In this document: positions 3,440 to 43,010 of the stretch, one piece after another
How the letters are laid out: every line of letters begins with the position of its first letter
Numbering within the stretch: the stretch's first letter is position 1
Assembly: GCF_900104795.1 (NCBI RefSeq)
Contig: NZ_FNTG01000002.1
Span: 1,488,001-1,552,000, forward strand
Reading direction: 5' to 3'
Origin: Burkholderia sp. WP9
Lineage (GTDB): Bacteria; Pseudomonadota; Gammaproteobacteria; Burkholderiales; Burkholderiaceae
Length of the DNA: 64,000 bases
Notes under the pieces: model-generated
What the model was told of the DNA's origin: nothing
Seen by the model: only the letters and a program-made list of their open reading frames with translations
Databases searched by the model: none
Made by a program: the position numbers and the translations under genes

Positions 3440-3456
3440 CCACCCCGGTGGGGTAG
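3440..3456 (-). promoter_or_regulatory. Candidate LAL-regulator operator (site a)
   Basis: Read on the minus strand this is CTACCCCACCGGGGTGG. It differs from site c at 25475-25491 by one base in 17. It lies 95 bases upstream of the GTG start at 3345 and in the same orientation. The match to sites in other intergenic regions is directly visible; binding by a MalT-like regulator is inferred. Confidence 0.55.
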
Positions 3457-3532
3457 AACGCCGTTCCTCCGCGGCAACACCGCATGAATAACGGGACATT
3501 TCCCCATCCAGGGCAACAAGGTTTTCCCTAGC

Positions 3533-3549
3533 CTACCTGTTCCGGGTGG
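3533..3549 (+). promoter_or_regulatory. Candidate LAL-regulator operator (site b)
   Basis: CTACCTGTTCCGGGTGG, in the same orientation as the MFS/GMC/TauD/ALDH operon and ending 100 bases before its first start codon. It shares both outer half-sites (CTACC and GGGTGG) and the 17-bp length with sites c, d and g. Confidence 0.55.
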
Positions 3550-3648
3550 TTGCCCACCCTCGCGCACCCATTACCGTGGCGCTACAAAGTCCGCATTACC
3601 GGCCGGGACAGCGAAGTCCGCCGGGAGCAGGACTACCGGAGACAACCT

Positions 3649-4938
3649 ATGACCGCTTCCCCTGATTTCCAGGCAAAGTCCGCGTGGACGATGACCTTCC
3701 TGCTGACGGGGCTCGCCCTCATCAATTTCCTGGACAAGATCGTGCTCGGTCTGGTGGCCGTGCCGTTGACGGCCGAACTGCACCTGTCTCCGGAAAAATT
3801 CGGACTTGTCGCCGGCAGCTTCTTCTGGCTCTTTTCCATTTCGACCGTCCTCGTGGGGTTTCTTTCGAACCGCTTCCAGACCCGCTGGCTATTGCTGGCA
3901 ATGGGCCTCAGTTGGGCGGTACTTCAATTGCCGCAGGCCATGGCGACGAGCGCGCTGGGGCTGCTCATCTGCCGCGTGATCCTGGGCGCCGCCGAAGGCC
4001 CGGCGTTTCCGGTTTCCGTGCATGCGTTGTACAAGTGGTTCCCCGACCGCAAACGCAATCTGCCTGTCGCCATCATCAACCAGGGCGCGGCTTTCGGCAT
4101 GCTGCTGGCCGGCCTGCTGATTCCGCTCGTCACGAGACAGTGGGGATGGCGTATGAACTTTCTGCTCCTCGGCGCGATAGGCGCGACGTGGAGCGTACTG
4201 TGGGCATGTTTCGGGCGCGAGGGCGGCCTCGGTAGGCAGCAAGCCGCGCCGATCGCGCGAAACCGCACGTCGCGGCTACCGTATCGGAGAATCCTCACGG
4301 ACCGTTCGGTCCTCTCGGTGTTCGCACTCGGATTCACCGCCTACTGGACCTTGGGCCTGAGCCTGACCTGGATCCCCACCTACCTCGAAAAAGGGCTCGG
4401 ATTCAGCGGTGTCGATGCGGGTCGTTGCTTCGCCGTGGTGGTCGCGACCGCGACTCCGGTCAACGTGGGCCTGAGCTGGTTATCCCAACGCATGCTCGGA
4501 CGCGGCGTGTCCACACGCAAGGCGCGTGTCCATCTGATCTGTTTGTCGGCGGTTGCCGGGGCTCTGCTGTATATCACCCTCATGCTGCTTCACCTGCCGC
4601 CGTTGCAGAAAGTGGCGTTACTCGCGGTGGCCGGCGCATTGCCGACGTTGAGCTTCACGCTGGCTCCCGCGCTGCTCGCCGAAATGGTCCCGGACATTCA
4701 GCGCGGGGCGCTCGTCGCCATCCACACGGCACTCGCAAGTCTTGGCGCCGCATTCGCACCGGCCGTGATGGGACGGATCGTACAGGTCTATGGCGGCGGC
4801 AACAGCCATGCCTATGAACTCGGCTTCACGGTCAGCGCCGTCCTGCTAATCGCGGCCTCCCTCGCCGCCGTGCGCTGGCTTCATCCTGATCGCTCGCACA
4901 GAACCCTCAATCACTTCGCCACGCAAGCCGCCACTTGA
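3649..4938 (+). CDS. MFS transporter (ACS/anion-cation symporter type)
   Basis: Twelve-helix inner-membrane transporter, 429 residues. I chose the ATG at 3649, with GGAGA six bases upstream, over an upstream start in the same frame, because the hydrophobic protein begins there (SAWTMTFLLTGLALINFLDK). The N-terminal helix with LINFLDKIVLGL, the motif in the second loop and the ILGAAEGPAFPVSVHALYKWFP segment resemble anion:cation symporters that carry organic acids. It is the first gene of the operon with the GMC dehydrogenase, TauD dioxygenase and aldehyde dehydrogenase, so it probably imports their substrate. Site b lies 100 bases upstream. Confidence 0.88.
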   Translation: MTASPDFQAKSAWTMTFLLTGLALINFLDKIVLGLVAVPLTAELHLSPEKFGLVAGSFFWLFSISTVLVGFLSNRFQTRWLLLAMGLSWAVLQLPQAMATSALGLLICRVILGAAEGPAFPVSVHALYKWFPDRKRNLPVAIINQGAAFGMLLAGLLIPLVTRQWGWRMNFLLLGAIGATWSVLWACFGREGGLGRQQAAPIARNRTSRLPYRRILTDRSVLSVFALGFTAYWTLGLSLTWIPTYLEKGLGFSGVDAGRCFAVVVATATPVNVGLSWLSQRMLGRGVSTRKARVHLICLSAVAGALLYITLMLLHLPPLQKVALLAVAGALPTLSFTLAPALLAEMVPDIQRGALVAIHTALASLGAAFAPAVMGRIVQVYGGGNSHAYELGFTVSAVLLIAASLAAVRWLHPDRSHRTLNHFATQAAT

Positions 4939-5016
4939 TTGATCTGGCTATGGCTGCGGCGACAAAGACAACGGCCGCTGCGCGTGCACACATCCCTTTC
5001 AACGAACAGAGGCGCC

Positions 5017-6705
5017 ATGATCAGAACTGGTAACAACGCTCGCAACAGCATGATCGCGGCCGAGTACGACTATATCGTCGTCGGCGCAGGCTCCGCAGGC
5101 TGCGCGGTGGCCGCCAGACTGGCGGAGGACACATCGGTCACGGTCGCTCTGCTCGAGGCCGGCCCGCATGACCATCACATGAGCGTATGGGTGCCGATCG
5201 GTCTGGCATCGACCGTGCAAAAGGCCGGTCCGCGCAACTATGCTTACCTCACCGAACGTCAGCCCGGCCTTAACGAACGCCCATCCTTTCAGCCGCGCGG
5301 ACGCGGACTGGGCGGCAGTTCGTCGATCAACGGCATGGTCTACATTCGTGGACATCGCAACGATTACGACGAATGGGCCGCTCTGGGTTGTACGGGTTGG
5401 GGCTACGACGACGTCCTGCCCTACTTCCGGCGCAGTGAATGCAACCAGCGCCACGCCGGACGTACTGACGATCCGTGGCACGGTGGTGACGGTCCGCTGC
5501 ACGTGAGCGACCTGCGAACGCCCAACCCGTTCTCGCATCGTTTCGTCAATGCCGCGTTGCAAGCCGGATTGCCGCTGAACACGGACTTCAACGGCGCGGA
5601 GCAGGAAGGCGCCGGCCTTTATCAGGTCACGCAGTTCAATGGCGAACGCTGGAATGCCGCGCGTGCCTACCTGCACAACGGCAATGCGAAAGATCCGGAC
5701 CTGAACGGCGGCCGCCCGAACCTGCACGTGCTCCCGGACACGCAGGTGTTGCGTCTTGTCATCGAGAACAAACGTGCGCGCGGCGTCAGCGTGGTGCGGG
5801 CAGGCGTCAAGCAAACCTTGCGGGCGCGGCGCGAAGTCGTGCTCAGTTGTGGCGCCTTCAATTCGCCGCAGTTGCTGATGGCCTCGGGCATCGGTGCGGC
5901 CGGGCATCTGCGCAGCCACGGTATCGAGGTCGTGCAGGATCTGCCCGGCGTGGGCGAGAATCTGCAGGACCACCTCGACGTGATCGTCAACAAACAGGTC
6001 AAATCCAACGACCTCTATGGCTACTCCGCAGGCGGCTTTTTGCGGCTCGCATCCGGCATGTGGCGTTACCGGCGCGATCGCAGCGGCATGGTCAGTTCCA
6101 ATTTCGCGGAGGCAGGCGCCTTTGTGAAAAGCCGCCCCGACCTGGCCATCCCGGACGTGCAGTTAGCTTTCGTTCTCGCCTTGCTCGGCAATCGCAACGT
6201 GGCGAAACGCCGCAAACTCGGACATGGCTATTCCTGTCACGCCTATATTCTGCGCCCGCAGAGCCGCGGTCACGTGCGCCTACGTAGCGCGGACATGCGC
6301 GACGCGCCGTCGATCGATCCACGCTTTCTGTCAGCGGAAGCCGACATGGAAGCGCTGGTCGCCGGTGTCAGGATCGTCCGCCGTATTTTCGCGCAGCCGG
6401 CGCTGGCCGAAGCGGGCGGAAAGGAACTGTTGACGGACGATTTCGGACCGGACGATTCGAACGAAGAAGCGATCCGGGCGTTCGTGCGCAGCCATGCCGA
6501 CAGCGTCTTTCACCCGGTGGGCACCTGCAAGATGGGAATCGACGCAATGGCCGTGGTCGACCCGAGCCTGCGCGTGCGCGGCATTGAAGCGCTGCGCGTG
6601 GCCGACGCGTCGATCATGCCGACGCTGATCGGCGGCAACACGAATGCACCGGCCATCATGATCGGCGAGAAAGCCGCTGATCTGATCCGCGCCGACCACC
6701 GCTAG
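5017..6705 (+). CDS. GMC-family FAD-dependent alcohol dehydrogenase
   Basis: Oxidises a primary alcohol (choline-dehydrogenase or AlkJ-like family) to the aldehyde using FAD. The 562 residues match the family. The FAD fold YIVVGAGSAGCAVAARL starts near residue 20, GGSSSINGMVYIRG is the family signature around residue 100, and the C-terminal HPVGTCKMG (catalytic His about residue 499) is followed by GGNTNAPAIMIGEKAAD, which contributes the paired Asn. I chose the ATG at 5017, behind an AGAGG site; another ATG lies 33 bases on. The aldehyde dehydrogenase two genes downstream is the obvious next step. The true alcohol is unknown. Confidence 0.92.
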   Translation: MIRTGNNARNSMIAAEYDYIVVGAGSAGCAVAARLAEDTSVTVALLEAGPHDHHMSVWVPIGLASTVQKAGPRNYAYLTERQPGLNERPSFQPRGRGLGGSSSINGMVYIRGHRNDYDEWAALGCTGWGYDDVLPYFRRSECNQRHAGRTDDPWHGGDGPLHVSDLRTPNPFSHRFVNAALQAGLPLNTDFNGAEQEGAGLYQVTQFNGERWNAARAYLHNGNAKDPDLNGGRPNLHVLPDTQVLRLVIENKRARGVSVVRAGVKQTLRARREVVLSCGAFNSPQLLMASGIGAAGHLRSHGIEVVQDLPGVGENLQDHLDVIVNKQVKSNDLYGYSAGGFLRLASGMWRYRRDRSGMVSSNFAEAGAFVKSRPDLAIPDVQLAFVLALLGNRNVAKRRKLGHGYSCHAYILRPQSRGHVRLRSADMRDAPSIDPRFLSAEADMEALVAGVRIVRRIFAQPALAEAGGKELLTDDFGPDDSNEEAIRAFVRSHADSVFHPVGTCKMGIDAMAVVDPSLRVRGIEALRVADASIMPTLIGGNTNAPAIMIGEKAADLIRADHR

Positions 6706-6858
6706 ACGGCCGCCCCGCGCGCTGAAGCGGCGCGCAAACGGCGTCGCACGAAACCAGAACCCGGCATACGCGCACCGCGTGCGCCTGTGAAACTGCCGCA
6801 ACTGCCGCGAGCCCCACGCGCCGCGGCACATGCGGGCCCTGACAAATGGAGACATGAC

Positions 6859-7779
6859 ATGCAAGCAACAGAGATCGCGCCCGATTCGACAGCGGTGCAC
6901 GCCAATTCCAACGACGCCTGGCCGTTCGCCGTCGAACGCTATACACCGACAATCGGCGCGGAAATTCGCGGCGTCGATCTGCGCGATCCGCTCGACGACG
7001 ACACTTACGCTGCATTGCGCCGCGCACTGCTGAAGTTCAAGGTTCTGTTTTTCCGCGACCAGGACATCAGCCCAGCCCAGCACGTCGCCGTGGCAAAGCG
7101 ATTCGGTGAACTGGAGATTCATCCCGCGTTTCCGCATCACCCGGAGCATCCGGAACTGGTGATCCTCGGCCGCAACGATACCAAGCGCGGCCGGGAGAAC
7201 CTGTACCACTCCGACGTATCGTGGCGCGAGATTCCCTCCATGGGCTCCATGTTGCGATGCGTGCAATGCCCCGAGGTCGGCGGCGACACCATGTGGATCA
7301 ACATGGTCGCAGCCTACGAGAATTTGCCCGGCGACGTGAAGGCGAAAATCGCCGGCCTCAAGGCGGTCCACGACTTCCTTCCGCTATTCGGCATTGCGGT
7401 GCCCGTGGACCAGCACGCAACGATGCGCGCGAAGTTTCCGCCCGTCGAGCACCCGGTCGTGCGAGTCCACCCCGAAACTGGCGAGAATATCCTCTACGTC
7501 AACGAAGCGTTTACCACGCATCTGTCGAATTACGGCCATTTGACCGCGAAGGAGTATCGCGTTGGCTTCGACTACAAGCTCGCCGAAATGGAACTGCTGC
7601 AGTACCTGTTCCGCCAGGCCCAGGCGCCGGAATATCAGGTCCGCCTCAAGTGGCGCCCGAACACGATCGCCTTCTGGGATAACCGCTCGTGCCAGCACTA
7701 TGCGGTCCAGGACTACTTCCCGGCGCCGCGCCACATGATGCGTGCGACGGTGATCGGCGATCGTCCGGTGGCAGCCTGA
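6859..7779 (+). CDS. TauD/TfdA-family Fe(II)/2-oxoglutarate dioxygenase
   Basis: Non-haem iron oxygenase that couples 2-oxoglutarate decarboxylation to hydroxylation, often with cleavage of a C-O or C-S bond. In the 306-residue product the metal triad is visible as H117-S-D119 (NLYHSDVSW) and H280 (WDNRSCQHYAV), with the 2-oxoglutarate-binding R295 (RHMMRATV). I placed the start at 6859, behind GGAGA, rather than at an upstream GTG. It lies between an alcohol and an aldehyde dehydrogenase, so its product is likely an alcohol or aldehyde that they process. Family members act on taurine, 2,4-D and alkyl sulfates; sequence alone does not choose among these. Confidence 0.92.
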   Translation: MQATEIAPDSTAVHANSNDAWPFAVERYTPTIGAEIRGVDLRDPLDDDTYAALRRALLKFKVLFFRDQDISPAQHVAVAKRFGELEIHPAFPHHPEHPELVILGRNDTKRGRENLYHSDVSWREIPSMGSMLRCVQCPEVGGDTMWINMVAAYENLPGDVKAKIAGLKAVHDFLPLFGIAVPVDQHATMRAKFPPVEHPVVRVHPETGENILYVNEAFTTHLSNYGHLTAKEYRVGFDYKLAEMELLQYLFRQAQAPEYQVRLKWRPNTIAFWDNRSCQHYAVQDYFPAPRHMMRATVIGDRPVAA

Positions 7780-7813
7780 GTTCGACGCGCCCCACAGAAT
7801 CCCAGGAAACGAA

Positions 7814-9235
7814 ATGAAAACGCTGAACACCTTCTATATCGGCGGCCAATGGGTCGAGCCGTCCGCCGGCAGCACGCAGACGGACATCGTCAATCCCGCC
7901 ACCGAGACGCTGACCGGCCAGCTCACGATGGGAACCGCGCAAGACGCGGATCGCGCCGTCGCCGCGGCGCGATCCGCCTTTCCGGTCTGGTCGGAATCGA
8001 GTCGCGCCGAGCGGGTCGCGCTGCTCGAGCGGATCATCGAATGCTACCGCGCGCGGCTCGACGACATTGCCGAGGCGGTCCGTATCGAGATCGGCGCGCC
8101 CATTACGCTGTGCAAGCATCTGCAGGCCGCGATCGGCCTCTCGCAACTTCAGGCCGCAGTGGAGACGTTGCGCCATTTCGAGTTCGAGACTCAACACGAC
8201 AAGAGCTACGTGCGCCGCGAAGCGGTCGGCGTCGCGGCGCTGATCACGCCGTGGAACTGGCCGTTGAACCAGATCGCCGCCAAAGTCGCGCCGGCCCTGG
8301 CAGCGGGTTGCACCGTCGTGCTGAAGCCTTCCGAGATCGCTCCGCTCGATGCTGTGATCTTCGCGGAAATCATGCACGAAGCGGGCACGCCGCCCGGCGT
8401 CTTCAATATGATCTTTGGCGAAGGGCGCGTCGTCGGCGCACGGCTGTCGTCGCATCCCGACGTGGACATGGTGTCGATTACCGGCTCGACGCGTGCCGGC
8501 GTGGAAGTGGCCGTCAGCGCCGCGCCCACGGTCAAGCGCGTGGCGCAGGAACTCGGCGGCAAGTCGCCTCTGCTGATTCTCGACGACGCCGATCTGCAGG
8601 CCGCTGTGACGAGCGGCGTGGCCCAGTGCATGGTCAATTCAGGACAGACCTGTGTTGCGCCGACCCGCATGCTGGTGCCACGCGAACGATACGACGAGGC
8701 CATGGCGATTGCCGCGGCGGTCGCCAATGGGATCGTTGTCGGCGATCCCGCGGACCCGGCCACCAAGATGGGCCCGATCTCGAACCGAGCGCAATACGAG
8801 AAGGTGCAGCACATGATCCGGGCCGGCATCGAGGAAGGCGCGAGGGTCATTGCCGGCGGCCCCGGCAGGCCCGAAGGAATTGCGCGGGGCTTCTACGCGC
8901 GCCCTACTGTTTTCGCGGATGTCCGCAACGACATGAAGATCGCGCGCGAGGAAATTTTCGGACCGGTGCTGGTGACGATTCCATACGACAGCGAGGAACA
9001 CGCCATTACGATGGCCAACGACACGGAATACGGGCTCGCCGCCTATATCGCCACCAGCAACCCCGAACGCGCCCGCCGTGTGGCCGCGCGCCTGCGCGTG
9101 GGCTCGGTGCGGATCAACGGCGCGATGCTGGACATTACGGTTCCCTTCGGCGGCTATAAGACATCCGGGAACGGACGCGAGTATGGTCGAGAAGGGTTGG
9201 CCGAGTTTCTCGAATGCAAATCGGTGACAGGCTAA
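7814..9235 (+). CDS. NAD(P)-dependent aldehyde dehydrogenase
   Basis: Oxidises an aldehyde to the carboxylic acid. All hallmarks are present in 473 residues: oxyanion Asn148 in TPWNWP, general base Glu246 in QELGGKSP, nucleophile Cys280 in NSGQTCVAPTRM, and the late EEIFGPVL motif. It starts 34 bases after the dioxygenase stop with a GGAAACGAA region before the ATG, and it closes the four-gene operon; a strong stem-loop follows. The acid produced could feed the CoA ligases of the neighbouring island, which is inference. Confidence 0.94.
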   Translation: MKTLNTFYIGGQWVEPSAGSTQTDIVNPATETLTGQLTMGTAQDADRAVAAARSAFPVWSESSRAERVALLERIIECYRARLDDIAEAVRIEIGAPITLCKHLQAAIGLSQLQAAVETLRHFEFETQHDKSYVRREAVGVAALITPWNWPLNQIAAKVAPALAAGCTVVLKPSEIAPLDAVIFAEIMHEAGTPPGVFNMIFGEGRVVGARLSSHPDVDMVSITGSTRAGVEVAVSAAPTVKRVAQELGGKSPLLILDDADLQAAVTSGVAQCMVNSGQTCVAPTRMLVPRERYDEAMAIAAAVANGIVVGDPADPATKMGPISNRAQYEKVQHMIRAGIEEGARVIAGGPGRPEGIARGFYARPTVFADVRNDMKIAREEIFGPVLVTIPYDSEEHAITMANDTEYGLAAYIATSNPERARRVAARLRVGSVRINGAMLDITVPFGGYKTSGNGREYGREGLAEFLECKSVTG

Positions 9236-9760: not shown

Positions 9761-10924
9761 TCAGAAACGATGTGTCATGCCGAGCACCGCAAGAACCTGC
9801 TTCGAACCGCTGGCGACGCCCGTCACACCAGGCCAGCTCATGTTCGCACTGCCGTTGTTCTTCAGGTAGCCCGCGCGCATGTAGAGACTCGTACGCTTTG
9901 ACAGACTGTGGTCGACGCCGACTTCGATACCCGGCGTATTGTCGTGAACGCCACGCACATCCCGTTCGATGCCGGCGATTTCGATCACGTCCGCGGGTGT
10001 GGCCTGGATCGTCGCGCCCAGCTCGATAATGCTGTACGAGTGAACCAGCGAAGCGAGCGGCAACTTGACTGCCGGCGTGATGGTGACGAGCGAGCCGGCA
10101 GGTGCATCCTTCGGCCGGTTATACGAATAGTTGAACTGAAAATTCACGATGCCCAGCCGGTATGCCAGCGCGCCGGTGAAGTGCTCCGTTCCCATCAGAT
10201 CGAATGTGGTCAGCAGCGTCGGCGCGGTTGGCACCAGCGGCGCACTCTCCTGCGATCCATGCTGATACTGGTAGCCAACGCCCGCATAGAAGCCGTAGCC
10301 CGAATAGTTCGCGGCCACGTCGACCATCGCGCCGGAGCGCACGGGCACGGGTTGCGTGACAGTGCCTGGCATCGCGTACATGGCGTAGACGTGCACGCCT
10401 CGCATGTCGGGTGACGAATAGAAGATCGAATTGCTGGTTCGCCCGGACACGTACTGCGTTGCGAGCGTGGAGCGGTCGGTTGCGCCGGCGAGGTCGGCCG
10501 CTGCCAGCGGCGACATGACTTCGTTACCGCGGAACGGGTCGGTGAAGTAGACAGCCCAGAAGCTCGGTTGATACTGACGCCCGAAACTCAGTTGGCCATA
10601 CGAATCGTGCTTCACTCCCACCCACGATTGCCGGTAGAACATTGCCGTGCTGTCCGCGAAGAAGCCTCCGTTGTTGATGTTGAAGCCGGTTTCGACGTCG
10701 AACACCGCCTTCAGACCGTTACCGAGGTCTTCGGATCCCTTCAGGCCGAACAGGGAACCCGTGGAGCCGCCACTTCGTTCGGAAAACGAATGTTTTCCGC
10801 CGTTATCCAGGTACTGGACGAATACGTCCGCCACCCCATATAGCGTCACGCTCGACTGGGCCGCCGCTCCTCCGGCGGCGAGAATCAATGTAGCTCCGCA
10901 AATGCTCTGACTCATGAAACGCAT
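9761..10924 (-). CDS. Gram-negative general porin (Burkholderia OmpC-like)
   Basis: Outer-membrane beta-barrel, 387 residues. The ATG at 10924 has AGAGGAGA upstream and begins a signal peptide ending in GGAAAQ. The mature protein opens with SSVTLYGVADVFVQYLDNGG, the standard first strand of this family, and ends in a terminal aromatic (VLGMTHRF), as expected for BAM-assembled porins. A typical GLKGSEDLGNGLKAVFDVETGFN segment follows the first loop. The long upstream region carries a weak copy of the 17-bp motif and a separate inverted repeat, so uptake of the island's substrate is a possible role, though unproven. Confidence 0.93.
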   Translation of the reverse strand: MRFMSQSICGATLILAAGGAAAQSSVTLYGVADVFVQYLDNGGKHSFSERSGGSTGSLFGLKGSEDLGNGLKAVFDVETGFNINNGGFFADSTAMFYRQSWVGVKHDSYGQLSFGRQYQPSFWAVYFTDPFRGNEVMSPLAAADLAGATDRSTLATQYVSGRTSNSIFYSSPDMRGVHVYAMYAMPGTVTQPVPVRSGAMVDVAANYSGYGFYAGVGYQYQHGSQESAPLVPTAPTLLTTFDLMGTEHFTGALAYRLGIVNFQFNYSYNRPKDAPAGSLVTITPAVKLPLASLVHSYSIIELGATIQATPADVIEIAGIERDVRGVHDNTPGIEVGVDHSLSKRTSLYMRAGYLKNNGSANMSWPGVTGVASGSKQVLAVLGMTHRF

Positions 10925-11063
10925 GCATGTCTCCTCTTTGTGTTTGCCGTGCCCCACGGACACGGGTAAAGCAAACTCATGCAGATGTCCGACGGGACGA
11001 CGGCCGGCACCAGCCCGGCCGGTCGTCGCGAGCCCATATTGCAGGGACGTCCGGGCAGATGAC

Positions 11064-11080
11064 CTACCCAAACAGAGGGG
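11064..11080 (+). promoter_or_regulatory. Weak candidate LAL-regulator operator (site f)
   Basis: CTACCCAAACAGAGGGG keeps the CTACCC half but departs from GGGTGG in the other half. It lies 140 bases upstream of the porin start. I list it as a degenerate match only. Confidence 0.25.
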
Positions 11081-16994: not shown

Positions 16995-17039
16995 CGCCAT
17001 CTATCCGCTCATGCCGCACTCATCCTCAGGAATTTAGTG

Positions 17040-32580: not shown

Positions 32581-33579
32581 TCATGCGGCGGCGCATGGCG
32601 CGGTTCGCGCGAAGTCCGCGAACGTGCCGTGCTCCTGCGCGAGCACCGCGTTCCCCACCATGCGATTCCAGAATGCCTCCGAGCCGTCCGCCATGCGCCA
32701 TTCATGCAGCCTGCGCGTATAGAGCTGGAGATCGTATTCGGCGGTGACGCCGATTGCGCCATGCAACGCATGCGCCGTCGACGCCACCAGCGGCACCGCC
32801 ATGCTCGTGCGCGCTTTGGCGATCGCTGTCGCGAGCCGCTCGGGCACGGCGCCCGCGCCCGAGAACGCCAGTTCGGATGCCATCCCGGCCGACGCCACGT
32901 GCTGGGCCATCACGCTCAACTGATGCTGCACCGCCTGAAATTTGCCAATCGACTTGCCGAATTGCGAGCGATCGTTGCAGTACTGCAGCGTCATGGCGAA
33001 CACGCGATCCATCGCGCCGGCGATAGCTGCCGCATGGATCGCAGCACTAAACCGCAGCACCTCTTCGCCGTTCGCGCCGAGCGGCGCGGGCACGGCATTG
33101 ATGCCCCAACTCAGCGTGCCGCTAAAGCTGCCGTGCACGCCGCAGGGTTTGCGTTCGGCTCGCGCGGCGTCGAGCAGCAGCAAATCACCGTCGACATTGG
33201 CCAGTACGTGATCACAGGTCATGCCGAACGGCACCTGAGGCGCCTCCAACGCGCCGTTCTCGCCACTGCGGCAAGCGCCGGCGAGCGTCGTCATGCCGCC
33301 AGGCGCTGCGACTCCGGTGCCGCGCAGAAGCGCGCGCGCCGCGATGCTCTGTGCGAGCGGCACGGGGACCGCATAGCGCCCAAGGGCCGTGAAAACCGGC
33401 GCGCTTGCCGGCAACGACAGTCCGGCGCCGCCGTCGCTTTCCGGCGTCAGCAACTCCAGAAAGCCGGCCTCCTCCACTGCGTTCCAGATAGACGCGGGCG
33501 TGCCGCCGTTCTCGATCGCGCGGATCGCTTCGGGGGTGGCGCGGTCGCGCAGAATAGCTTCAATGGCTTCGGTGAACAT
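32581..33579 (-). CDS. Acyl-CoA dehydrogenase, short form (subunit of a likely heteromer)
   Basis: A 332-residue acyl-CoA dehydrogenase family protein, shorter and more divergent than the others. LLTPESDGGAGLSLPASAPVFTALGRYAVPVPLAQSIAARAL and HALHGAIGVTAEYDLQLYTRRLHEW resemble the FadE27/FadE29-type subunits of actinobacterial steroid catabolism, which form alpha2-beta2 complexes with a longer partner. That partner is probably the gene 26 bases upstream (33606-34763). ETF is the expected electron acceptor. Heteromer formation is inferred from order and length. Confidence 0.88.
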   Translation of the reverse strand: MFTEAIEAILRDRATPEAIRAIENGGTPASIWNAVEEAGFLELLTPESDGGAGLSLPASAPVFTALGRYAVPVPLAQSIAARALLRGTGVAAPGGMTTLAGACRSGENGALEAPQVPFGMTCDHVLANVDGDLLLLDAARAERKPCGVHGSFSGTLSWGINAVPAPLGANGEEVLRFSAAIHAAAIAGAMDRVFAMTLQYCNDRSQFGKSIGKFQAVQHQLSVMAQHVASAGMASELAFSGAGAVPERLATAIAKARTSMAVPLVASTAHALHGAIGVTAEYDLQLYTRRLHEWRMADGSEAFWNRMVGNAVLAQEHGTFADFARTAPCAAA

Positions 33580-33605
33580 GCAGGTCTCTTCCTCGTCCAG
33601 ATGGG

Positions 33606-34763: not shown

Positions 34764-34811
34764 GTCTCACTCCAGATTTTTGTAGTCGCCTCGCCGCTGC
34801 GCGTCTGCGGG

Positions 34812-36380
34812 TTATGAATCCGCACGCTCCGCTCGTGCGTCATAGCGCTCGCGCAGTGCCTGCTTGTACAGCTTGCCGGTAGGCAGGCGCGGCATCGCGT
34901 CGATGAAATCGATCGAGCGCGGCACCATGTAGCGCGCCACTCGCGTACGCAGGTAGGCCAATAGCCGTTCCGCGAGCGCGTCCGACGGCACCACGCCGGG
35001 CATCGGTTCGACAATCGCTTTGACCTGCTCGCCCATCTCGGCGTCGGGCACGCCGATCACCGCCGCATCCTGCACATCGGGATGCACGGCCAGCGCGTCT
35101 TCGATCGCTTGCGGATAGATGTTGACTCCGCCGGAGATGATCATGAACGCCTTGCGATCGGTCAGATACAGATAGCCGTCGCTATCCACATGACCTATGT
35201 CGCCGACCGCCGTCCACGCCGGATAGCGGGGATGTTGTGCGGCACGGGTCTTGTCGGGATCGTTGTGGTAGTGGAACGGCAACTGGTCCCGCTCGAAATA
35301 GACGGTGCCGGTTTCGCCGACCGGCAACTCGTTGCCGTCGTCATCGCAGATATGAATGACGCCGAGCAGCGGGCGGCCCACCGAACCGGGATGCGCGAGC
35401 CACTCCTCGGTGCTGAGCGTGGTCACGCCATTGCCCTCAGTCGACGAGTAATACTCCTCGATGATCGGCCCCCACCAGTCGATCATCTGCCGCTTGACCT
35501 CCTGTGGGCACGGTGCGGCCGCATGAATCGCCACCCGGTGGCTCGACAGGTCGAATGCATCGCGCAGCGAGGGGCCGAGCTTGAGCAGGCGGATCAACAT
35601 GGTCGGCACCCACTGGCTGTGCGTGACGCGATAGCGCTCGATCGCCCGCAGCGCTTCGAGCGGATCGAACTTCTCCATGAAGACCACGGTGCCACCGCCA
35701 AACTGCGTCTCGATTCCGTAGCCGAGCGGCGCGGTGTGATAGAGCGGAGCCGGTGACAGATACACCGTTTGCGCGTCAAAACCATAGCGCTCGAACTGCG
35801 GGCGGCGCGCGGAACCGGAACCTTCTGTCACCCGGCCCTGAGGCTGCGCGCGAATAATGCCCTTCGGACGGCCGGTCGTGCCCGAGCTATAGATCATCAT
35901 GGCGCCCAGCCATTCGTCCTCAAGACGACTGGCGGGATAGCGGCCGGTCATGGCTTCATAGCTTTCCCAGCCGGCAATGGTGCCGTCGACCATCAGCCGC
36001 AGACGGCACGTCGGCATCATGCTGGTCAGTCCGGCCGCGAGCTCGCGCATTGCATACGAACTGACCACCACTTGCGCGTTGCTGTCCTCGATGATGCCGG
36101 CTGCTTCCGCCGCGGTCAGATAGCGGTTGACCGGCGTGATCATCAAGCCGGAACGCAGCGCCGCCCAACACACCTCGAAGCAGCGCATGTTGTTCTCGAG
36201 CACCATCGCGATATGGTCGCCGCGCCGCAGCCCCGCTGCGTACAGACACTGCGCGAAGCGATTCGAACGCTCGTCGAGTTCGCGATAGGTCAACACCTCG
36301 CCGCTCGTGCTGTTGATCGCGGCGGCCTTATCCGGTGTCAGTTCGGCATGGTCGCCGAGGTATTTCGGGGTTCCGCTCAT
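34812..36380 (-). CDS. AMP-dependent acyl-CoA ligase (ligase 3)
   Basis: A 522-residue CoA ligase. It shows MMIYSSGTTGRPKGIIRAQPQG at the ATP loop, EYYSSTEGNGVTTLS at the adenine motif, and VGDIGHVDSDGYLYLTDRKAFMIISGGVNIYPQAIEDAL at the hinge; the catalytic Lys is in LPTGKLYKQALRERY. The overall pattern resembles FadD-type ligases that work on bulky or cyclic acids. The start at 36380 is preceded by AGGAGAG. It is 36 bases after the SDR gene in the same operon. Confidence 0.92.
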   Translation of the reverse strand: MSGTPKYLGDHAELTPDKAAAINSTSGEVLTYRELDERSNRFAQCLYAAGLRRGDHIAMVLENNMRCFEVCWAALRSGLMITPVNRYLTAAEAAGIIEDSNAQVVVSSYAMRELAAGLTSMMPTCRLRLMVDGTIAGWESYEAMTGRYPASRLEDEWLGAMMIYSSGTTGRPKGIIRAQPQGRVTEGSGSARRPQFERYGFDAQTVYLSPAPLYHTAPLGYGIETQFGGGTVVFMEKFDPLEALRAIERYRVTHSQWVPTMLIRLLKLGPSLRDAFDLSSHRVAIHAAAPCPQEVKRQMIDWWGPIIEEYYSSTEGNGVTTLSTEEWLAHPGSVGRPLLGVIHICDDDGNELPVGETGTVYFERDQLPFHYHNDPDKTRAAQHPRYPAWTAVGDIGHVDSDGYLYLTDRKAFMIISGGVNIYPQAIEDALAVHPDVQDAAVIGVPDAEMGEQVKAIVEPMPGVVPSDALAERLLAYLRTRVARYMVPRSIDFIDAMPRLPTGKLYKQALRERYDARAERADS

Positions 36381-36416
36381 GCAGACTCTCCTGCGATGCG
36401 TGAGGGTTTCGGGCGC

Positions 36417-37352
36417 TTACGCTACCGTCTCCGGAATTTCGCCGGAGGTCAGCGCATTCGGCGCGGCCTGCTCCACCAACCCCGGTATCAAAGCACCGAG
36501 TTCCGCCGCATCCCAACGCCCGTCCTTCTCGATGCGCGGGCCGGCATGCCAGCCTTCGGCCACCGTGATACGGCCACCGCGCACGCCAAACACACGCCCG
36601 GTGATACCGCTCGACGCACTGCTGCCCAGCCATCCCACGAGGGGCGCGACATTGCCGGCATCCAGCGGATCGAAGCCCGGTGCGGCGCCCGCGGTGAATT
36701 CGTCGCGCCGCTTCGCGAAGATGTCCTCAGTGAGCCGGCTCATTGCGGTCGGATAGATCGCATTCACGGTCACACCATAGCGCTCCAGTTCGCGAGCCGC
36801 AATCACCGACATGGCGGCGATACCGGCCTTTGCCGCGCCATAGTTGGCCTGGCCAGGATTGCAGTACAGACCCGACGACGAACTGGTGTTGATGAGCCGC
36901 GCCACCCGCTCGCGACCCGCCTTGGCCTCCTCGCGCCAATATGCGGCGGCGTGGCGTGACGGCGCAAAAGTGCCGCGCATGTGCACGCGAATCACCGAGT
37001 CCCAGTCTTCCTCGCTCATGTTGACCAGCGTGCGATCGCGCAGAATGCCCGCGTTGTTGACCAGCACGTCGAGTCCGCCGAAAACGGAAATCGCCGTGTC
37101 GATCATGTTCTTCGCGCCCTGCCAGTCGGCCACGTCGTCGAAGTTCGCGACAGCTTCGCCGCCGAGCGCTTCGATTTCGGCGACCACATCAAGCGCGGGG
37201 CCGCTCGCCGCGCCCGAACCATCTCCCTTGCCGCCGAGATCGTTGACGACGACTTTCGCCCCCTGACGGGCGAACTCCAGAGCGTATTCACGTCCGAGGC
37301 CTCGACCGGCGCCGGTGACGACTACAACGCGATTCTTGCAAAGCTGCTGCAT
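36417..37352 (-). CDS. SDR dehydrogenase, peroxisomal 17beta-HSD4/MFE-2-like
   Basis: A 311-residue short-chain dehydrogenase. TGAGRGLGREYALEFARQGAKVVVNDLGG is typical of the 3-hydroxyacyl-CoA dehydrogenase domain of MFE-2/FOX2-type enzymes. The active Tyr171 and Lys175 lie in ANYGAAKAG, and NNAG is at residues 99-102. The extended C-terminus (after GVRGGRITVAEGWHAGP) also fits that subgroup. It probably oxidises a (3R)-hydroxyacyl-CoA in the right-arm pathway. It is flanked by a thiolase and a ligase gene. Confidence 0.92.
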   Translation of the reverse strand: MQQLCKNRVVVVTGAGRGLGREYALEFARQGAKVVVNDLGGKGDGSGAASGPALDVVAEIEALGGEAVANFDDVADWQGAKNMIDTAISVFGGLDVLVNNAGILRDRTLVNMSEEDWDSVIRVHMRGTFAPSRHAAAYWREEAKAGRERVARLINTSSSSGLYCNPGQANYGAAKAGIAAMSVIAARELERYGVTVNAIYPTAMSRLTEDIFAKRRDEFTAGAAPGFDPLDAGNVAPLVGWLGSSASSGITGRVFGVRGGRITVAEGWHAGPRIEKDGRWDAAELGALIPGLVEQAAPNALTSGEIPETVA

Positions 37353-37427
37353 GGGAAATCCTCAGTGCTGTTTGCTATCCAGACGTTTGCGCAGGAGACG
37401 ACTTGCCGCCGGCCTGCGCTCACGCGT

Positions 37428-38615
37428 TCAGTGCTTGCCGTACAGCGTCACGACACACGCGCCGCCCAGGCCCAGGTTGTGTTGAAGCGCGAGCTTCGCG
37501 CCTTGCACCTGGCGCTGGTCAGCGGTGCCGCGCAACTGCTGGGTCAACTCATAACACTGCGCGAGGCCGGTCGCGCCCAACGGATGCCCCTTGGAAAGCA
37601 GGCCGCCCGACGGATTGACCACCACCTTGCCGCCATACGTGTTGTCACCGTCGTTGACGAACTTCTCGGCGCCGCCTTCCGGGCAGAACCCAAGCGATTC
37701 GTAGCAGATGACTTCGTTGTGCGCGAAACAGTCGTGCAGCTCGCACACGTCGATGTCTTCCGGTCCGATACCGGCCTGTTCATAGACCTTGTTCGCGGCC
37801 GAACGCGTCATGTGCGTGCCGACGTAGTTCAGCATCGACGGCGGATCGAACGAAGCCGGCGGATCCGTCGTGAGGGATTGCGCAACGATCTGCACACCGG
37901 TGCGCAAGCCATGCTTCTTCGCAAACTTCTCGGAGACGAGGATCGCCGCCGCGCCGCCGCATGTCGGCGGGCAGGCCATCAGACGCGTCATCACGCCGGG
38001 TATCAGCACCGTGTCGTTCATCACGTCTTCGGTCGTCACCTGTTTGCGGAACAGTGCGAGCGGGTTGTTGGCCGCGTGGCGGCTCGCCTTCGCGCGCACC
38101 GCGGCGAAGGTTTCCATGCGCGTGCCGTAACGCTGCATATGCTCGCGGCCCGCGCCGCCGAACGTGCGCAGTGCCTGCGGAAGATGCGCCAGGTCGGCGG
38201 TGAGGCCGTGCATGATCGGCACGAAACGCGCACGCGTCACCGGCCGGTCGTCCCAGTGCGATTTCAATGCACCCGCCTGCATCTGCTCGAAGCCGAGCGC
38301 GAGCACGCAGTCGGCGTCGCCGGTCGCGATTGCCTGGCGCGCCAGATAAAGCGCGGTCGAACCCGTCGAGCAATTGTTATTGACGTTGACGATCGGAATG
38401 CCCGTCATGCCCACTTCGTACAGCGCGGTCTGGCCGCACGTGGAGTCCCCGTAGACGTAGCCCGCGAATGCCTGCTCTACGAGGTCGTACGCAATGCCCG
38501 CATCGGCCAGCGCGCGGCGGGTCGCTTCAGCGCCCATTTCGGTGTAGCTCTGGCTCGCGCCGGGCTTGGCGAACTGGATCATGCCGACGCCCGCCACCAG
38601 TACTTTTTCGCTCAT
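37428..38615 (-). CDS. SCP-x-type thiolase / lipid-transfer protein (copy 2)
   Basis: A 395-residue paralog of the enzyme at 18211-19395. The active Cys82 is in NNNCSTGSTALYLARQA, with CELHDCFAHNEVICYESLG and NPSGGLLSKGHPLGATGLAQCYELTQQLRG retained. It cleaves a 3-oxo- or 3-hydroxyacyl-CoA. The pairing with an upstream acyl-CoA dehydrogenase repeats the left-arm order. The two copies are clearly homologous along their whole length but differ in many positions, so the duplication is not recent. Confidence 0.92.
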   Translation of the reverse strand: MSEKVLVAGVGMIQFAKPGASQSYTEMGAEATRRALADAGIAYDLVEQAFAGYVYGDSTCGQTALYEVGMTGIPIVNVNNNCSTGSTALYLARQAIATGDADCVLALGFEQMQAGALKSHWDDRPVTRARFVPIMHGLTADLAHLPQALRTFGGAGREHMQRYGTRMETFAAVRAKASRHAANNPLALFRKQVTTEDVMNDTVLIPGVMTRLMACPPTCGGAAAILVSEKFAKKHGLRTGVQIVAQSLTTDPPASFDPPSMLNYVGTHMTRSAANKVYEQAGIGPEDIDVCELHDCFAHNEVICYESLGFCPEGGAEKFVNDGDNTYGGKVVVNPSGGLLSKGHPLGATGLAQCYELTQQLRGTADQRQVQGAKLALQHNLGLGGACVVTLYGKH

Positions 38616-38641
38616 GATGCTGCCTCAAAAGGTAAGGAGAC

Positions 38642-39781
38642 TTAAAGCTTGCGCGAGATCAGATCCCGCAGAACCTCGCTGGTCCCACCGAAAATGCGCG
38701 TGACGCGCATGTCGGCAAAGGCACGGGCAATCGGATACTCCAGCATGTAGCCGTAACCGCCATGCAACTGGACCATTTCGTCGATGCACTTCCACATCGC
38801 TTCGGTCGCGAAGAGCTTGGCGATGGCCGCTTCCTGCAGCGTGAGCTTGCGCTCCATGTGCTCGCGGATGTAGTAATCGACCAGCGTGCGGACCGCGACG
38901 GCTTGCGCCTTCACATCGGCCAGCTTGAATTTGGTGTTCTGGAAGTCCCACACGGTTTGATTGAAAGCGCGTCGGTCCTTCACGTATTGCAACGTCAGTT
39001 CGAGTTGCCGCTCCAGCTTCGCGGCGCAATACACCGCGATGATCAGGCGCTCTTGCGGCAACTCTTCCATCAGGTGAATGAAGCCGCCGTTCTCGTTACC
39101 GATCAGGTTGCTTGCCGGTACGCGCACGTTGTCGAAAAAGAGTTCGGCAGTGTCAGCCGCGGCCTGCCCGACTTTCTCGAGCTTGCGGCCACGGCGAAAA
39201 CCGGCACGGTCGGTTTCGACCATGATCAGGCTCACGCCCTTCGCACCCGCCGACGGGTCGGTCTTGCAGACCACCACCACCATGTCGCAGTTCAGGCCGT
39301 TGGAGATGAAAGTCTTGCTGCCGTTGATCACGTAGTCGTCGCCATCGCGCACCGCGGTGGTACGGATCGACTTCAGATCAGAGCCCGTGCCGGGCTCGGT
39401 CATCGCGATGGCGAGAATCTTTTCGCCGCGGCAAATGGGCGGCAACCAGTTGCGTTTCTGCTCTTCGGTGCCGAGGCGCACGATGTACGGCGCGGTGATA
39501 TCGGAGTGCACGGAATAGCTGAAACCCGACACGCCCGCACGATGCAACTCTTCCGCGACGATCGCCGAATGACCGAAATCGCCGCCGCCACCGCCGTATT
39601 CTTCCGGGACGGTCACGCACAGCAGACCTTCCCGCCCGGCCTTCAACCACGTCTCGCGATCGACACAGCCGGCCTCGTCCCACTGCGCCTGACGCGGCAG
39701 GCATTCCCGTTCGAAGAAACGCCGCGCGGTTTCACGCAGCATCTCGTGATCCTCGCGATAGACATTACGTTTGACTTCCAC
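38642..39781 (-). CDS. Acyl-CoA dehydrogenase (copy 2)
   Basis: A 379-residue paralog of the enzyme at 17040-18179, with the same length and very similar motifs: [38 protein letters not shown] and [38 protein letters not shown] chose the GTG at 39781 because AAGGAG lies six bases upstream and the resulting N-terminus ([15 protein letters not shown]) aligns with copy 1; the upstream ATG lacks support. It is the first gene of the nine-gene operon that runs to 28975, and a 27-bp inverted repeat lies about 100 bases upstream. Confidence 0.94.
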
Positions 39782-39880
39782 CGCACGCTCCTTATCGATT
39801 GAATGCGTTGGCAGCGCGGACCGGGTTTGCCGGCCGGCTGCTTCCATAAACGCATTGTGCGTGGCGGGGGTGGGGAGCGA

Positions 39881-39907
39881 GCCTACCCCCGTAGAGTGGG
39901 GGTAGGC
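39881..39907. promoter_or_regulatory. Inverted-repeat operator ahead of the nine-gene operon (site e)
   Basis: Perfect 10-bp arms, GCCTACCCCC and GGGGGTAGGC, surround a 7-base spacer (GTAGAGT). It contains the CTACCC half of the 17-bp motif on both strands and lies 100 bases upstream of the GTG at 39781. A terminator for the regulator gene (ending 39936 on the same strand) is an alternative, but no T run follows. Confidence 0.55.
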
Positions 39908-39935
39908 GGATGGAGGACTGCGGATGAGACGGCGG

Positions 39936-42680
39936 TTATCGCGCGCCCGCGTCGCGCATCCTGGCGACGGCGCCGTCGCGGCCCGACACTTCGAGCTTTC
40001 TGTAGATGTTCTTCAGGTGCCACTTCACCGTATCGAGCGAAACGTCCATGACCCGCGCAATCTTCTTGTTGGGCAATGCAAGTGCAAGCAGACCCAGGAC
40101 CTCGTTTTCACGTTCGCTGAGCGACTGGATCGGCACGTGCATCGCAGCCGTCTGTGGCGCGGCAGGTGCCGTTGCCTGTCCGGCTTCGATCAGCCGTTGG
40201 GCATAGAAAGCGAGGACGGGATCGAAGCCCTGTTCCGACGGCAGCGGGTCGAGAATCTGCCGGCAGGGTCCAAGCTCGTCCAGCAGGCTGCGCATCAGCC
40301 CCAGCCGGTGCCCGAGACGCAGCGCCTCGACCAGATGCTCACGCGCCGCTCTCTCGTTGTGGCGCCCCATCTCGGCAATCGACATCTGCAACCGCAACCC
40401 GGCTACGCGGCACCACCGCCCTCCCGCTTCGGACAGCGCGCTGAGGGGCTTCAGCCGGTTCATCGCGCCGTCGAAATCGTTCAGATGCAGGCACATGCGA
40501 ATGCGCGCAAGATCGGCGCAGACGCTGATTTCCCATGCCGTGCTGCGTGCCGCGCCGGCATAACGCGCCGCGAGCGCTTCGCAGCGCAGCAGCGCCGCCT
40601 CGGCTTCATCGAGACTGCCTTCTTCCAGCAGCCAGCGGGAGCGCAAGCAGAGTGCGTTGGCGAGTAGACGATCCACACCATGACGCTTCGCATAGTCTTC
40701 GAGTCGATCGAGATAGTCGCGCGCCTCGAGCCGACGGCCCGCGAACCAGTGCGCGCCGGCGAGCACCACCAGCGCTCGCAACACGGTGTCCGGAATCGAC
40801 ACACGCTCTAGCACGTCGATGCGTTCGTCCAACAGACCGAGTGCGGCATCGACATCGTTCAGTTCGTAGAGCGCTTCGCCAAGCAGCGCCGCGGCCATGC
40901 ACGCAATGCCGACGTAGGCCGGCCCCTGTTTTTCCGCTTCCGCCAGCACGTCGCAAAAGACCCGCTCGGCGAGCAGCACCTGCCCCTCGGCGGCGTGCGT
41001 CATACCGCTCATGCACCGGCCAAGCAGAATGCCGCGCGGCGCGCCGCCATGCGGCGCACCTTCCTCCAACACCTTGCGCGCCTGTTCATATTCACCACGA
41101 TGGATGAACATCCACGAGAGAATATTGCCGCGACCCGCACGGGTGAAATCGTCCGCGTCCGCGGGGACGCGCTGCAGTTCAGGCAATAGCGCGACGACCG
41201 AATCCGTGTCGTCGCGCTGTAGCGCGAGGCCACCGCGAAGCAGCGCGAGCGCGTAGCGCTGACGCGGGTCCGGCCGCTCGCTGCGCGACGCTATCTGCTG
41301 GATGCTCTGCATGAGCGCATCGGTTTCCCCCGCATACATTTGCAGATAGGCGGTGATCACGCGCAGATCGAAACGCGCCGTGATCTGCGCCGGAGGCAAC
41401 CGGCGCACCAGGCCCGCCAGCTGCCGGAGTTCGCCGCGCGCGAGCAGATCGTGCGCGCAGCCCTCCACGAGGTCGGCGGCAGCCTGTGCGTTGTCGGCCA
41501 GCACGGCGTGATGCACGGCTTCGTCGACATAACCTTGCTCACTGAGCCACAGCCAGGCCGCCGCATGCAGTTCGCGCAATTCCGCGGCCGGCAGCCCGGC
41601 GACCCGGCGCTGCAGCACCTCGCGCAGCAGAGGATGCAGGCGATACCAGGTTTCGCCGTCCTGTCCGACACCAATCTGGCTGATGAACAGATTGTCGCCC
41701 TCCAGGCGACTGAGTCGGGAGGCGACGTCTGCAACCGCATCTGCATGCTGCATCAAGCTCGCGCAAAGGCGTGCGCAAAATCGTTCGCACAACGCCGCGC
41801 GAGTAAGCAGAAGCAGATCGTCCGGCGCGAGGCGCACCAGCACTTCGCGTTCGAAGTAGCGGGCGAACGTCTCGGCGTCGCGCACCGTTGCAGGCGCGAA
41901 GGCCGCACCTTTGCGGGTCTTCAGGTCGATCGCGAACAATTGCAGGCCCGCCGCCCAGCCGTCGGTCAGTTCATGCACGACCTGCGCGTCCCGTTTGGCG
42001 ATGTCGCCGAGTTGTTCGCGCAAGAACCGCTCTGATTCTTCGGCCGAAAAGCGCAGATCCCGTCGATCGAGTTCGGTCGCGAGACCCTGCGAGCGCAGGC
42101 GCGCCAGCGAAACGGGCAACGCCCGCCGCGAAGCCAGTACGACATGAAGCTGTGGTGGCGCGTAATCGAGCAGCCAGCGCATCGCTTCGAGAATCCGGGC
42201 GTTCTGAAGGTAATGAACGTCGTCTAGCATCAGCACGAGCTCGCGCTTGCGGCGCGCAATCCCACGAACGAGCGTGATTACCCAATGCTCGACCGCCGTC
42301 TCGTCGCTTTCACGGCCGACCAGCAGTTCCGCTTCGCGCGCGATCGCCGGATCCACGCTGGCAAGGCTCGCGAGCAGACCGTGAAAGAACGCGGTCAGGT
42401 CGTCGTCCTCAGGCGCGAGCGACAGCCAGGCCACGTCGAAATCCAGCGTCAGCATGGCTTGCCGCAGGGCCAGCATCGTGCTGGTTTTGGCGCTGCCGGC
42501 CGGCCCCTGAATCACCACGCAACGCTGCCGCCGCGCTTCGAGCAGGCGCGCCATCAAGGCTTCGCGCGGCATGAGCTGGCGCGCCGCCCGAGGCGGAATC
42601 AATCTCGTACCGGTGACGGGCTCGATAGCGAGTCTGGGGGAGACGCGCACGTCTCCTGAGTGTTCATTGGATTCGGGCAT
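39936..42680 (-). CDS. MalT-like (LAL) LuxR-family transcriptional activator, copy 2
   Basis: A 914-residue paralog of the regulator at 12057-14903. Walker A is GPAGSAKTS (residues 59-67), Walker B is LVLMLDDVHYL, and the C-terminal helix-turn-helix reads [45 protein letters not shown]. The helical-repeat sensor region aligns throughout, including FDVAWLSLAPEDDDL. The recognition helices differ slightly (ISPETVKWH against VSLDTVKWH), so the two may share operators. Site d is 122 bases upstream of its start, which suggests auto- or cross-regulation. The ribosome site is weak. Confidence 0.93.
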   Translation of the reverse strand: MPESNEHSGDVRVSPRLAIEPVTGTRLIPPRAARQLMPREALMARLLEARRQRCVVIQGPAGSAKTSTMLALRQAMLTLDFDVAWLSLAPEDDDLTAFFHGLLASLASVDPAIAREAELLVGRESDETAVEHWVITLVRGIARRKRELVLMLDDVHYLQNARILEAMRWLLDYAPPQLHVVLASRRALPVSLARLRSQGLATELDRRDLRFSAEESERFLREQLGDIAKRDAQVVHELTDGWAAGLQLFAIDLKTRKGAAFAPATVRDAETFARYFEREVLVRLAPDDLLLLTRAALCERFCARLCASLMQHADAVADVASRLSRLEGDNLFISQIGVGQDGETWYRLHPLLREVLQRRVAGLPAAELRELHAAAWLWLSEQGYVDEAVHHAVLADNAQAAADLVEGCAHDLLARGELRQLAGLVRRLPPAQITARFDLRVITAYLQMYAGETDALMQSIQQIASRSERPDPRQRYALALLRGGLALQRDDTDSVVALLPELQRVPADADDFTRAGRGNILSWMFIHRGEYEQARKVLEEGAPHGGAPRGILLGRCMSGMTHAAEGQVLLAERVFCDVLAEAEKQGPAYVGIACMAAALLGEALYELNDVDAALGLLDERIDVLERVSIPDTVLRALVVLAGAHWFAGRRLEARDYLDRLEDYAKRHGVDRLLANALCLRSRWLLEEGSLDEAEAALLRCEALAARYAGAARSTAWEISVCADLARIRMCLHLNDFDGAMNRLKPLSALSEAGGRWCRVAGLRLQMSIAEMGRHNERAAREHLVEALRLGHRLGLMRSLLDELGPCRQILDPLPSEQGFDPVLAFYAQRLIEAGQATAPAAPQTAAMHVPIQSLSERENEVLGLLALALPNKKIARVMDVSLDTVKWHLKNIYRKLEVSGRDGAVARMRDAGAR

Positions 42681-43010
42681 ACGGGGAAAGCTGAGAGACC
42701 GGATAACGTGAGAGAAGTCTCGCGACGCGTACCGTCACGCCGGAACGCGCTTTGCCGAGTATAGGAGTGCGACGCCACCCGTCGGGCAATTTAGCGCCCA
42801 CCTACCCGATTCGGGTGGGTAAAAGGCGCAGGGAGGGTTCGACTCTATGGAAGCCGTGGGTCACTTGTGCCGCGCTCAGTGAGCCAGCCACCCGCCGCCG
42901 CAGGCGCAATAGCGCATGCTTCTTGCTTCGGCAATGTGCTTGTCGGGAAGGCGACGCGCGATCATCCCGCAACGTGGCCGGACCTCCCCGCCAGTTCAGG
43001 GAGAGTCGTT
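42681..43010. other. Divergent intergenic region between LAL-2 and the GDSL lipoprotein
   Basis: A 330-base gap without a convincing gene. It contains site d (42802-42818), which is placed to serve the regulator (122 bases away) and less likely the lipoprotein gene (193 bases away). Confidence 0.5.
42802..42818 (+). promoter_or_regulatory. Candidate LAL-regulator operator (site d)
   Basis: CTACCCGATTCGGGTGG, with a perfect central palindrome ACCCGA-T-TCGGGT. This is the most symmetric copy of the motif, so either strand orientation is acceptable. It lies 122 bases upstream of the second LAL gene. Confidence 0.6.

Follow-up and report, generated by a model that had tools for sequence, protein, structure and literature searches.

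The window analysed here is a 64,000-nucleotide stretch of Burkholderia sp. WP9 that carries two regulators of the LAL (MalT/AlkS-type) class, LAL1 and LAL2, among catabolic operons. Several of these operons have a short palindrome in front of them, and the core shared by its copies is CYACCC-N5-GGGTRG. We consider it very likely that this palindrome is the operator of LAL1 and LAL2. The first-pass annotation of the window had proposed a probable LAL-controlled regulon, and its five strong sites, the longer inverted form at 39881-39907 and the weak copy at 11064-11080 all read as it gave them. The proposal is now supported by a motif that tracks LAL genes between genomes, keeps its place in other genera and stands in front of GMC oxidoreductase genes in trans; binding itself is predicted.

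The exact palindrome is rare in the own genome (9,023,533 bases), where we found six places, four of them within the 39 kb in which the motif had been said to link several operons. From the genome density, the probability of at least four exact places in a given stretch of 39 kb is about 2e-8, the stretch having been picked after the fact. Another 35 places differ by exactly one mismatch (two of them in the window), which gives 41 with up to one mismatch. The reversed control has one exact place and 55 with up to one mismatch. Because the control is as common at this level, the one-mismatch matches elsewhere are mostly background, and the whole-genome scan suggested earlier bore out the exact palindrome, concentrated in the 39 kb, and not the relaxed one. 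Looser patterns are little or not enriched, so the signal is carried by the strict palindrome together with its placement; with up to three mismatches the window contains 20 places against a shuffle mean of 11.7 (2 of 100 shuffles were as high), a mild enrichment.

Of 193 stretches recovered in a search for relatives of LAL1, we kept the best 80, which supplied 79 loci; these come from Paraburkholderia, Caballeronia, Cupriavidus, Variovorax and others. One of them is from P. xenovorans LB400, which carries a LAL1 of 93 % identity and similar sites on chromosome 2. Together with the window the loci make up 1.74 Mb, 89 % of it coding; some overlap or come from near relatives, and genes were called by a codon-bias caller trained on 23 window genes, so that start codons and the coding fraction are approximate. 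The exact motif has 68 copies in this set, 66 of them intergenic (55 intergenic and 2 coding once near-identical contexts are removed). Equal density in coding regions, which according to the first-pass annotation would speak against the regulon, was therefore not observed. There are also 72 copies with one mismatch, 64 of which are intergenic (54 intergenic and 8 coding after thinning). Scrambled palindromes (reversed, block-swapped and permuted) gave no exact copy, spacers of 3, 4, 6 and 7 nt gave 0, 0, 1 and 0, and a direct repeat gave two. Sites with up to one mismatch were found within 450 nt of 29 of the 33 LAL genes with at least 60 % identity, 23 of the 37 with 40-60 % and 8 of the 18 below 40 % (n = 88), compared with 0-2 in each identity band for three scrambled controls. 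The motif adjoins LAL genes of five genera with differing neighbours, and at orthologous genes the operator keeps its place in other genera. All nine LAL1 calls with at least 75 % identity, the window's own included, stand beside ACAD38, and LAL1 seems to come with the ACAD38 module.

We also scanned 77 genus genomes, chosen irrespective of their LALs, and counted LAL1 relatives with at least 44 % identity. These genomes contain 73 exact places of the motif and 56 of the reversed control. Within 15 kb of such a LAL lie 34 of the 73 and none of the 56, and within 1 kb 20 and none. Of the motif and control places, 50 and 11 fall in the 17 genomes where such a LAL was found, compared with 23 and 45 in the remaining 60. 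Motif places are clustered within 20 kb 13 times, control places once. Of the 13 clusters, 12 share their contig with a LAL at most about 23 kb away, the exception being genome G043. Together with the counts from the own genome and the LAL neighbourhoods, these numbers led us to reject chance as the origin of the motif. Among the 39 motif places that have no such LAL within 15 kb are orphan GMC sites and stems with T-runs, and probably also chance matches. Members in trans were found in three genomes (G001, G053 and G043), where a GMC gene (65-66 % identical) on a contig other than that of the main cluster is preceded by an exact site and, 23 nt from it, by TATCGT or TATTGT.

The sites keep a fixed distance to a -10-like hexamer, which we scored using a matrix of E. 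coli-like frequencies, with a threshold of 1.0. In 100 sequences aligned towards the faced gene, the mean score at offset 22 is 16 standard deviations above shuffles, and 70 of 83 non-redundant catabolic promoters have a hexamer above the threshold at 22-23 nt. The same holds for five of the six window sites with up to one mismatch, compared with 8.8 % of random intergenic positions in one direction. The regular spacing had initially been placed between the site and the start codon (95-140 bp); this did not hold, as the fixed distance runs to the -10 element instead. When the hexamer is taken as -12 to -7, the operator spans -51 to -35 at catabolic promoters. Next to the -10 element and overlapping the -35, this is the LuxR class II position, as judged from predicted start sites. 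At the promoter of LAL1 itself, TATACT, TATAAT or TATCAT lies 37-40 nt from the site in 10 of 11 cases, and the site is near -59; at the window's own copy (42802) no hexamer scoring at least 1 occurs at 22-23 nt in either direction.

Both proteins have the build of the LAL class (about 900 aa, an N-terminal ATPase, MalT-like TPR and a C-terminal GerE domain). GerE, TPR_MalT and AAA_22 are above cut-off in both, while AAA_16 is above it in LAL2 and 3 bits below in LAL1. With 259 and 273 bits, the two LALs miss the NCBIfam cut-off for the MalT equivalog (537 bits). Residues 30-429 of LAL1 align with the MalT structure 8bob (E 1.8e-29), and in the MalT alignment its P-loop is GPAGSAKTS, in which an A takes the place of the last G expected from the Walker A pattern (GxxxxGK[ST]). 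The recognition helix is identical in LAL1 and LAL2 and aligns with TVKVHVKHML of NarL, TVKxHxK being kept (alignment of the LAL1 DNA-binding domain). The operons of both LALs had been listed as targets. For LAL1 this stands; for LAL2 it does not, since site 14967 lies behind LAL2, facing the acyl-CoA synthetase gene. We found no clear site in front of LAL2 in the window, and its operon is not visibly a target.

From the DNA we infer binding, activation and an inducer. A pair of GerE domains would bind the two half-sites (TACCC...GGGTA/G). At catabolic promoters the bound LAL, centred at about -43 beside a sigma-70 -10 element, would stand in for a good -35 and recruit RNA polymerase in class II fashion. 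The site of the LAL1 gene is about 16 bp further up, a class I-like arrangement that would lead to positive feedback. A wider scheme is conceivable, although we lean slightly away from it: a LAL clade spanning Burkholderiales (Paraburkholderia, Caballeronia, Cupriavidus, Variovorax and others) would have a single operator code. Here LAL1 and LAL2, paralogues with identical recognition helices and one per catabolic module, would read the same sites. Two inducers or a mixed LAL assembly would then add up on a single regulon that breaks down methyl-branched alkyl or alkyl-sulfate compounds, the site acting as class II at the enzymes and class I at the LAL1 gene.

Control by LALs is favoured because of the intergenic placement, the fixed spacing, the co-occurrence with LALs and the shared recognition helix. 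It seems improbable that the palindrome instead belongs to a different regulator (unlinked, or missed in our scans) that happens to serve the same clusters. Such a regulator would suit the G043 cluster, whose sites are present although its fetched stretch contains no LAL, and a similar palindrome, CCACCC-N5-GGGTGG with a -10-like hexamer at 22 nt, that occurs in five genus genomes with an AraC-type neighbour in one stretch (L109) and no LAL in the stretch; LAL binding, for its part, is predicted from sequence. However, the motif follows LALs in whole genomes and adjoins their genes in five genera, the half-site agrees with GerE/NarL logic, and no other DNA-binding domain turned up in the gene products scanned at about 0-44 kb (E limit 1e-8 in part; ACAD38 only against NCBIfam). 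Slightly less probable still is a LAL that binds as a repressor, its site over the -35 blocking RNA polymerase until the inducer is present. The site does occupy the -35 place, and passages of PMC9628970 describe a LAL repressor, SCO6993. Yet the promoter regions have poor -35 hexamers beside decent -10 elements (read by eye, unscored), as is usual for activator-dependent promoters, the LAL1 site is clear of the core promoter, and MalT and AlkS are activators according to the passages available on them.

That the palindromes are transcription terminators or other hairpins has a minute probability. Elsewhere, certain matches form stems with a T-run behind them (L104, L114, L115 and L133; read by eye), and for those we accept this explanation. 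For LAL-linked sites we rejected it, as a T-run within 12 nt occurs at just 5 of 94, the sites lie upstream of genes with a fixed -10 element, and the half-site letters are conserved beyond mere pairing.

Several observations weigh against the palindrome as the LAL operator. No -10-like hexamer was found at 22-23 nt in 13 of the 83 promoters, and 18 of the 83 have one on the far side, partly since some sites are divergent. A 6-nt spacer with one mismatch gave 31 places in the LAL neighbourhoods, 23 of them intergenic, which may reflect a loose spacer rule or shifted readings of the same sites. No site with up to one mismatch lies within 450 nt of 28 of the 88 LAL gene calls, including those of L055 and L093 (59-60 % identity), which carry the same recognition helix. 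The constancy of this helix is partly selected, as the loci were picked by LAL patterns covering part of it. Among the 77 genomes, G076 has a close LAL yet no exact site. The operator cluster of G043 (L136) has no LAL in its fetched stretch, and the LAL on another contig of this genome (L184), which resembles LAL2 at only 60 %, lacks an adjacent site. Nine further LAL stretches from these genomes comprise three without a site of up to one mismatch, five with one-mismatch sites only and one with an exact site. Only 11 LAL candidates per genome were scored, and the co-occurrence count may thus miss LALs. Finally, LAL1 and LAL2 cannot be told apart as the binding protein. In six genomes (G001, G053, G042, G011, G002 and G004) a single LAL with at least 44 % identity was found among the scored candidates. 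The LAL of the fetched stretch belongs to the LAL2 type, so LAL2 alone is probably enough there.

LAL regulators are large and common, and to our knowledge the operator has been established for few of them other than MalT, AlkS and the Streptomyces regulators. With operator, spacing and gene set readable from the DNA, exact transcription starts and targets can be predicted, and the approach offers a route to the regulons of many unnamed LALs. The window also hints at the substrate of a Burkholderiales pathway, and in it two paralogous activators apparently share one site.

The system is best read as an AlkS-like regulon that LALs would activate through an inverted-repeat operator, probably with positive feedback. 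It differs in having two LALs and genes for branched chains, and presumably operator letters of its own. Passages of PMC8784404 describe for AlkS of P. putida GPo1 an inverted-repeat operator at PalkB and at its own PalkS2, with positive feedback. A LAL regulator of a catabolic cluster and an inverted-repeat operator at both catabolic and LAL-gene promoters are common to the two systems. Unlike the AlkS system, the window has two LALs instead of one, and we found no alkane hydroxylase among the scanned window genes. MalT of Escherichia coli has the same protein build as LAL1, but its sites are decanucleotides in direct repeat according to passages of PMC6099782, whereas the operator here is an inverted repeat. 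The same passages describe TpdR of Rhodococcus jostii TMP1, likewise a LAL activator of a catabolic operon; its pathway, for tetramethylpyrazine, is different, and its boxes consist of 15-nt direct repeats and short inverted repeats. For NarL, the relevant parts of PMC4886647 and PMC4549865 describe recognition of TACYYMT heptamers and work on an inverted site, TACCCCTAAAGGGGTA. NarL shares with our system the half-site TACCC/GGGTA in inverted repeat and a GerE domain with the TVKxHxK helix, but its heptamers are arranged 7-2-7 instead of 7-1-7, and it is a response regulator and not a LAL. Among mainly open-access papers on LALs, alkyl sulfatases or the motif letters, none deals with this operator or regulon in its title or the start of its abstract.

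The regulators, putative targets and sites are listed in Table 1. The weak copy at 11064 can be specified as a porin-facing site with two mismatches. At the same promoter place some relatives have exact or one-mismatch sites and the nearest relatives two-mismatch sites, and CAATAT at 22 nt recurs in several relatives. ETF-QO is faced directly by an operator site in two other stretches (L147 and L148), and TTACTT of the racemase promoter lies within TGGCTTACTT, which recurs in most orthologous promoters. The 27-bp inverted form is present, but its outer arms are not conserved among relatives and only the inner 17 bp are kept, so we rejected it as a special site and regard the arms as incidental. 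The start of ACAD38 is likely near 39781, judging from an AAGGAG resembling a ribosome-binding site and a spacing of about 100 nt in relatives. A search of a plasmid collection with the stretch 42640-42900 around the LAL1 site gave no match.

Table 1. Regulators, putative target genes and operator sites in the window, in order of position.
Feature	Position	Strand	Remarks
Operator, exact	3440..3456	-	towards a 99-aa open reading frame (3061-3360) and ETF-QO (1277-2953); -10-like TACTGT 3412-3417 at 22 nt
Operator, 1 mismatch	3533..3549	+	towards MFS-GMC-TauD-aldehyde dehydrogenase operon; -10-like TACCGT 3572-3577 at 22 nt
Target operon	3691..9235	+	MFS, GMC oxidoreductase, TauD-type dioxygenase, aldehyde dehydrogenase
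Target gene	9761..10963	-	porin
Weak operator, 2 mismatches	11064..11080	-	towards porin gene; CAATAT 11036-11041 at 22 nt
LAL2	12132..14903	+	second LAL/MalT-type regulator; longer frame 11814-14903
Operator, exact	14967..14983	+	towards acyl-CoA synthetase operon (from 15114); TATGCT 15006-15011 at 22 nt
Target operon	15114..21142	+	acyl-CoA synthetase, acyl-CoA dehydrogenase (ACAD), SCP-x-type thiolase, FAS1_DH and MaoC hydratases, SDR
Target gene	24195..25355	-	alpha-methylacyl-CoA racemase (CaiB fold); E 8e-120 to 1x74
Operator, exact	25475..25491	-	towards alpha-methylacyl-CoA racemase-ETF operon; TTACTT at 23 nt, weak score 1.2
Target operon	28975..39847	-	ACAD38, thiolase, SDR, FadD, split ACAD pair, enoyl-CoA hydratase, NMO, FadD
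Operator, 1 mismatch	39883..39899	-	inner 17 bp of the 39881-39907 form; towards ACAD38 operon; CACAAT at 23 nt
LAL1	39936..42680	-	LAL/MalT-type regulator (AAA, TPR_MalT, GerE), 914 aa
Operator, exact	42802..42818	.	between LAL1 and a GDSL lipase gene; TATACT 42758-42763, 38 nt off towards LAL1

Around the LALs we found genes for MFS transporters, four acyl-CoA synthetases, acyl-CoA dehydrogenases, ETF subunits, ETF-QO, hydratases, SDRs and two thiolases of the lipid-transfer (SCP-x-like) kind. One acyl-CoA dehydrogenase (32581-34763) is split, with the N and middle domains in one protein and the C domain alone in the next. As the protein called CaiB is closest to the alpha-methylacyl-CoA racemase structure, the pathway probably handles methyl-branched chains. 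The combination of GMC alcohol oxidation, aldehyde dehydrogenase, acyl-CoA synthetase, racemase, acyl-CoA dehydrogenase, hydratases, SCP-x thiolase and ETF/ETF-QO points to methyl-branched alcohols or acids.

A further substrate clue comes from operons away from the main cluster (L103, L116 and L135), in which an orphan GMC oxidoreductase gene with an exact operator is joined by an SdsA-type alkyl sulfatase gene. In G001 the sulfatase (Pfam PF14863, PF14864 and PF00753) is encoded by the gene after the trans GMC gene, and tblastn located relatives of it in the same place in G053 and G043 (94 % and 91 %). Five of the 79 loci (L029, L030, L034, L035 and L039) and two of the nine further LAL stretches (L190 and L191) encode the same family in the fetched neighbourhood of a LAL. 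Alkyl-sulfate esters are suggested as a substrate by the TauD enzyme and by the SdsA-type sulfatase that operator-bearing operons of relatives encode.

We claim no remote members in the own genome, because the -10 rate at places outside the window is not above that of random intergenic positions. A score of at least 2.5 in either direction was reached by 3 of these 35 places (33 with one mismatch and two exact), while 9.2 % of random intergenic window positions reach it. Both exact places are held to be chance matches. C1:4051830 has no -10 at 22-23 nt and, by tblastn, no neighbour like those of the window; C5:176741 has only a weak -10 (GATCTT, 2.9) and lies beside reading frames judged transposase-like by eye. 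The only alkyl sulfatase with PF14863 found in the own genome (C2:2519172) is likewise not counted among the members; its one-mismatch match is about 310 nt upstream of the gene start and has no -10 at 22-23 nt.

The sequence CCACCTTTTCGGGGTGG, with one variant, was recovered at seven places in the own genome (L156, L159, L163, L166, L169, L170 and L172) with a low coding score and an identical CCTGAC at 22 nt, and looks like a dispersed repeat rather than a set of operators. In L136, LAL2 is missing between the acyl-CoA synthetase and DUF2889 genes of the main cluster. The window also encodes a NarL-type response regulator with a GerE domain (48355-49008), 5.5 kb past the last site and, as far as seen, not part of the regulon.

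The palindrome CCACCC-N5-GGGTGG of the five genus genomes (L109:9841, L111:2034, L112:9027, L122:9719 and L138:2334) has CAGAAT or TAGAAT at 22 nt. It precedes a gene of 597 codons, which encodes an acyl-CoA dehydrogenase in L109 and is followed by ETF-QO in L109 and L122, and it lies beside a 335-codon gene, the AraC-type one in L109. The same letters were found near 9876-9930 at the Variovorax LALs (L076-L081), between the LAL gene and a divergent gene, which in L080 encodes a methyl-accepting chemotaxis protein.

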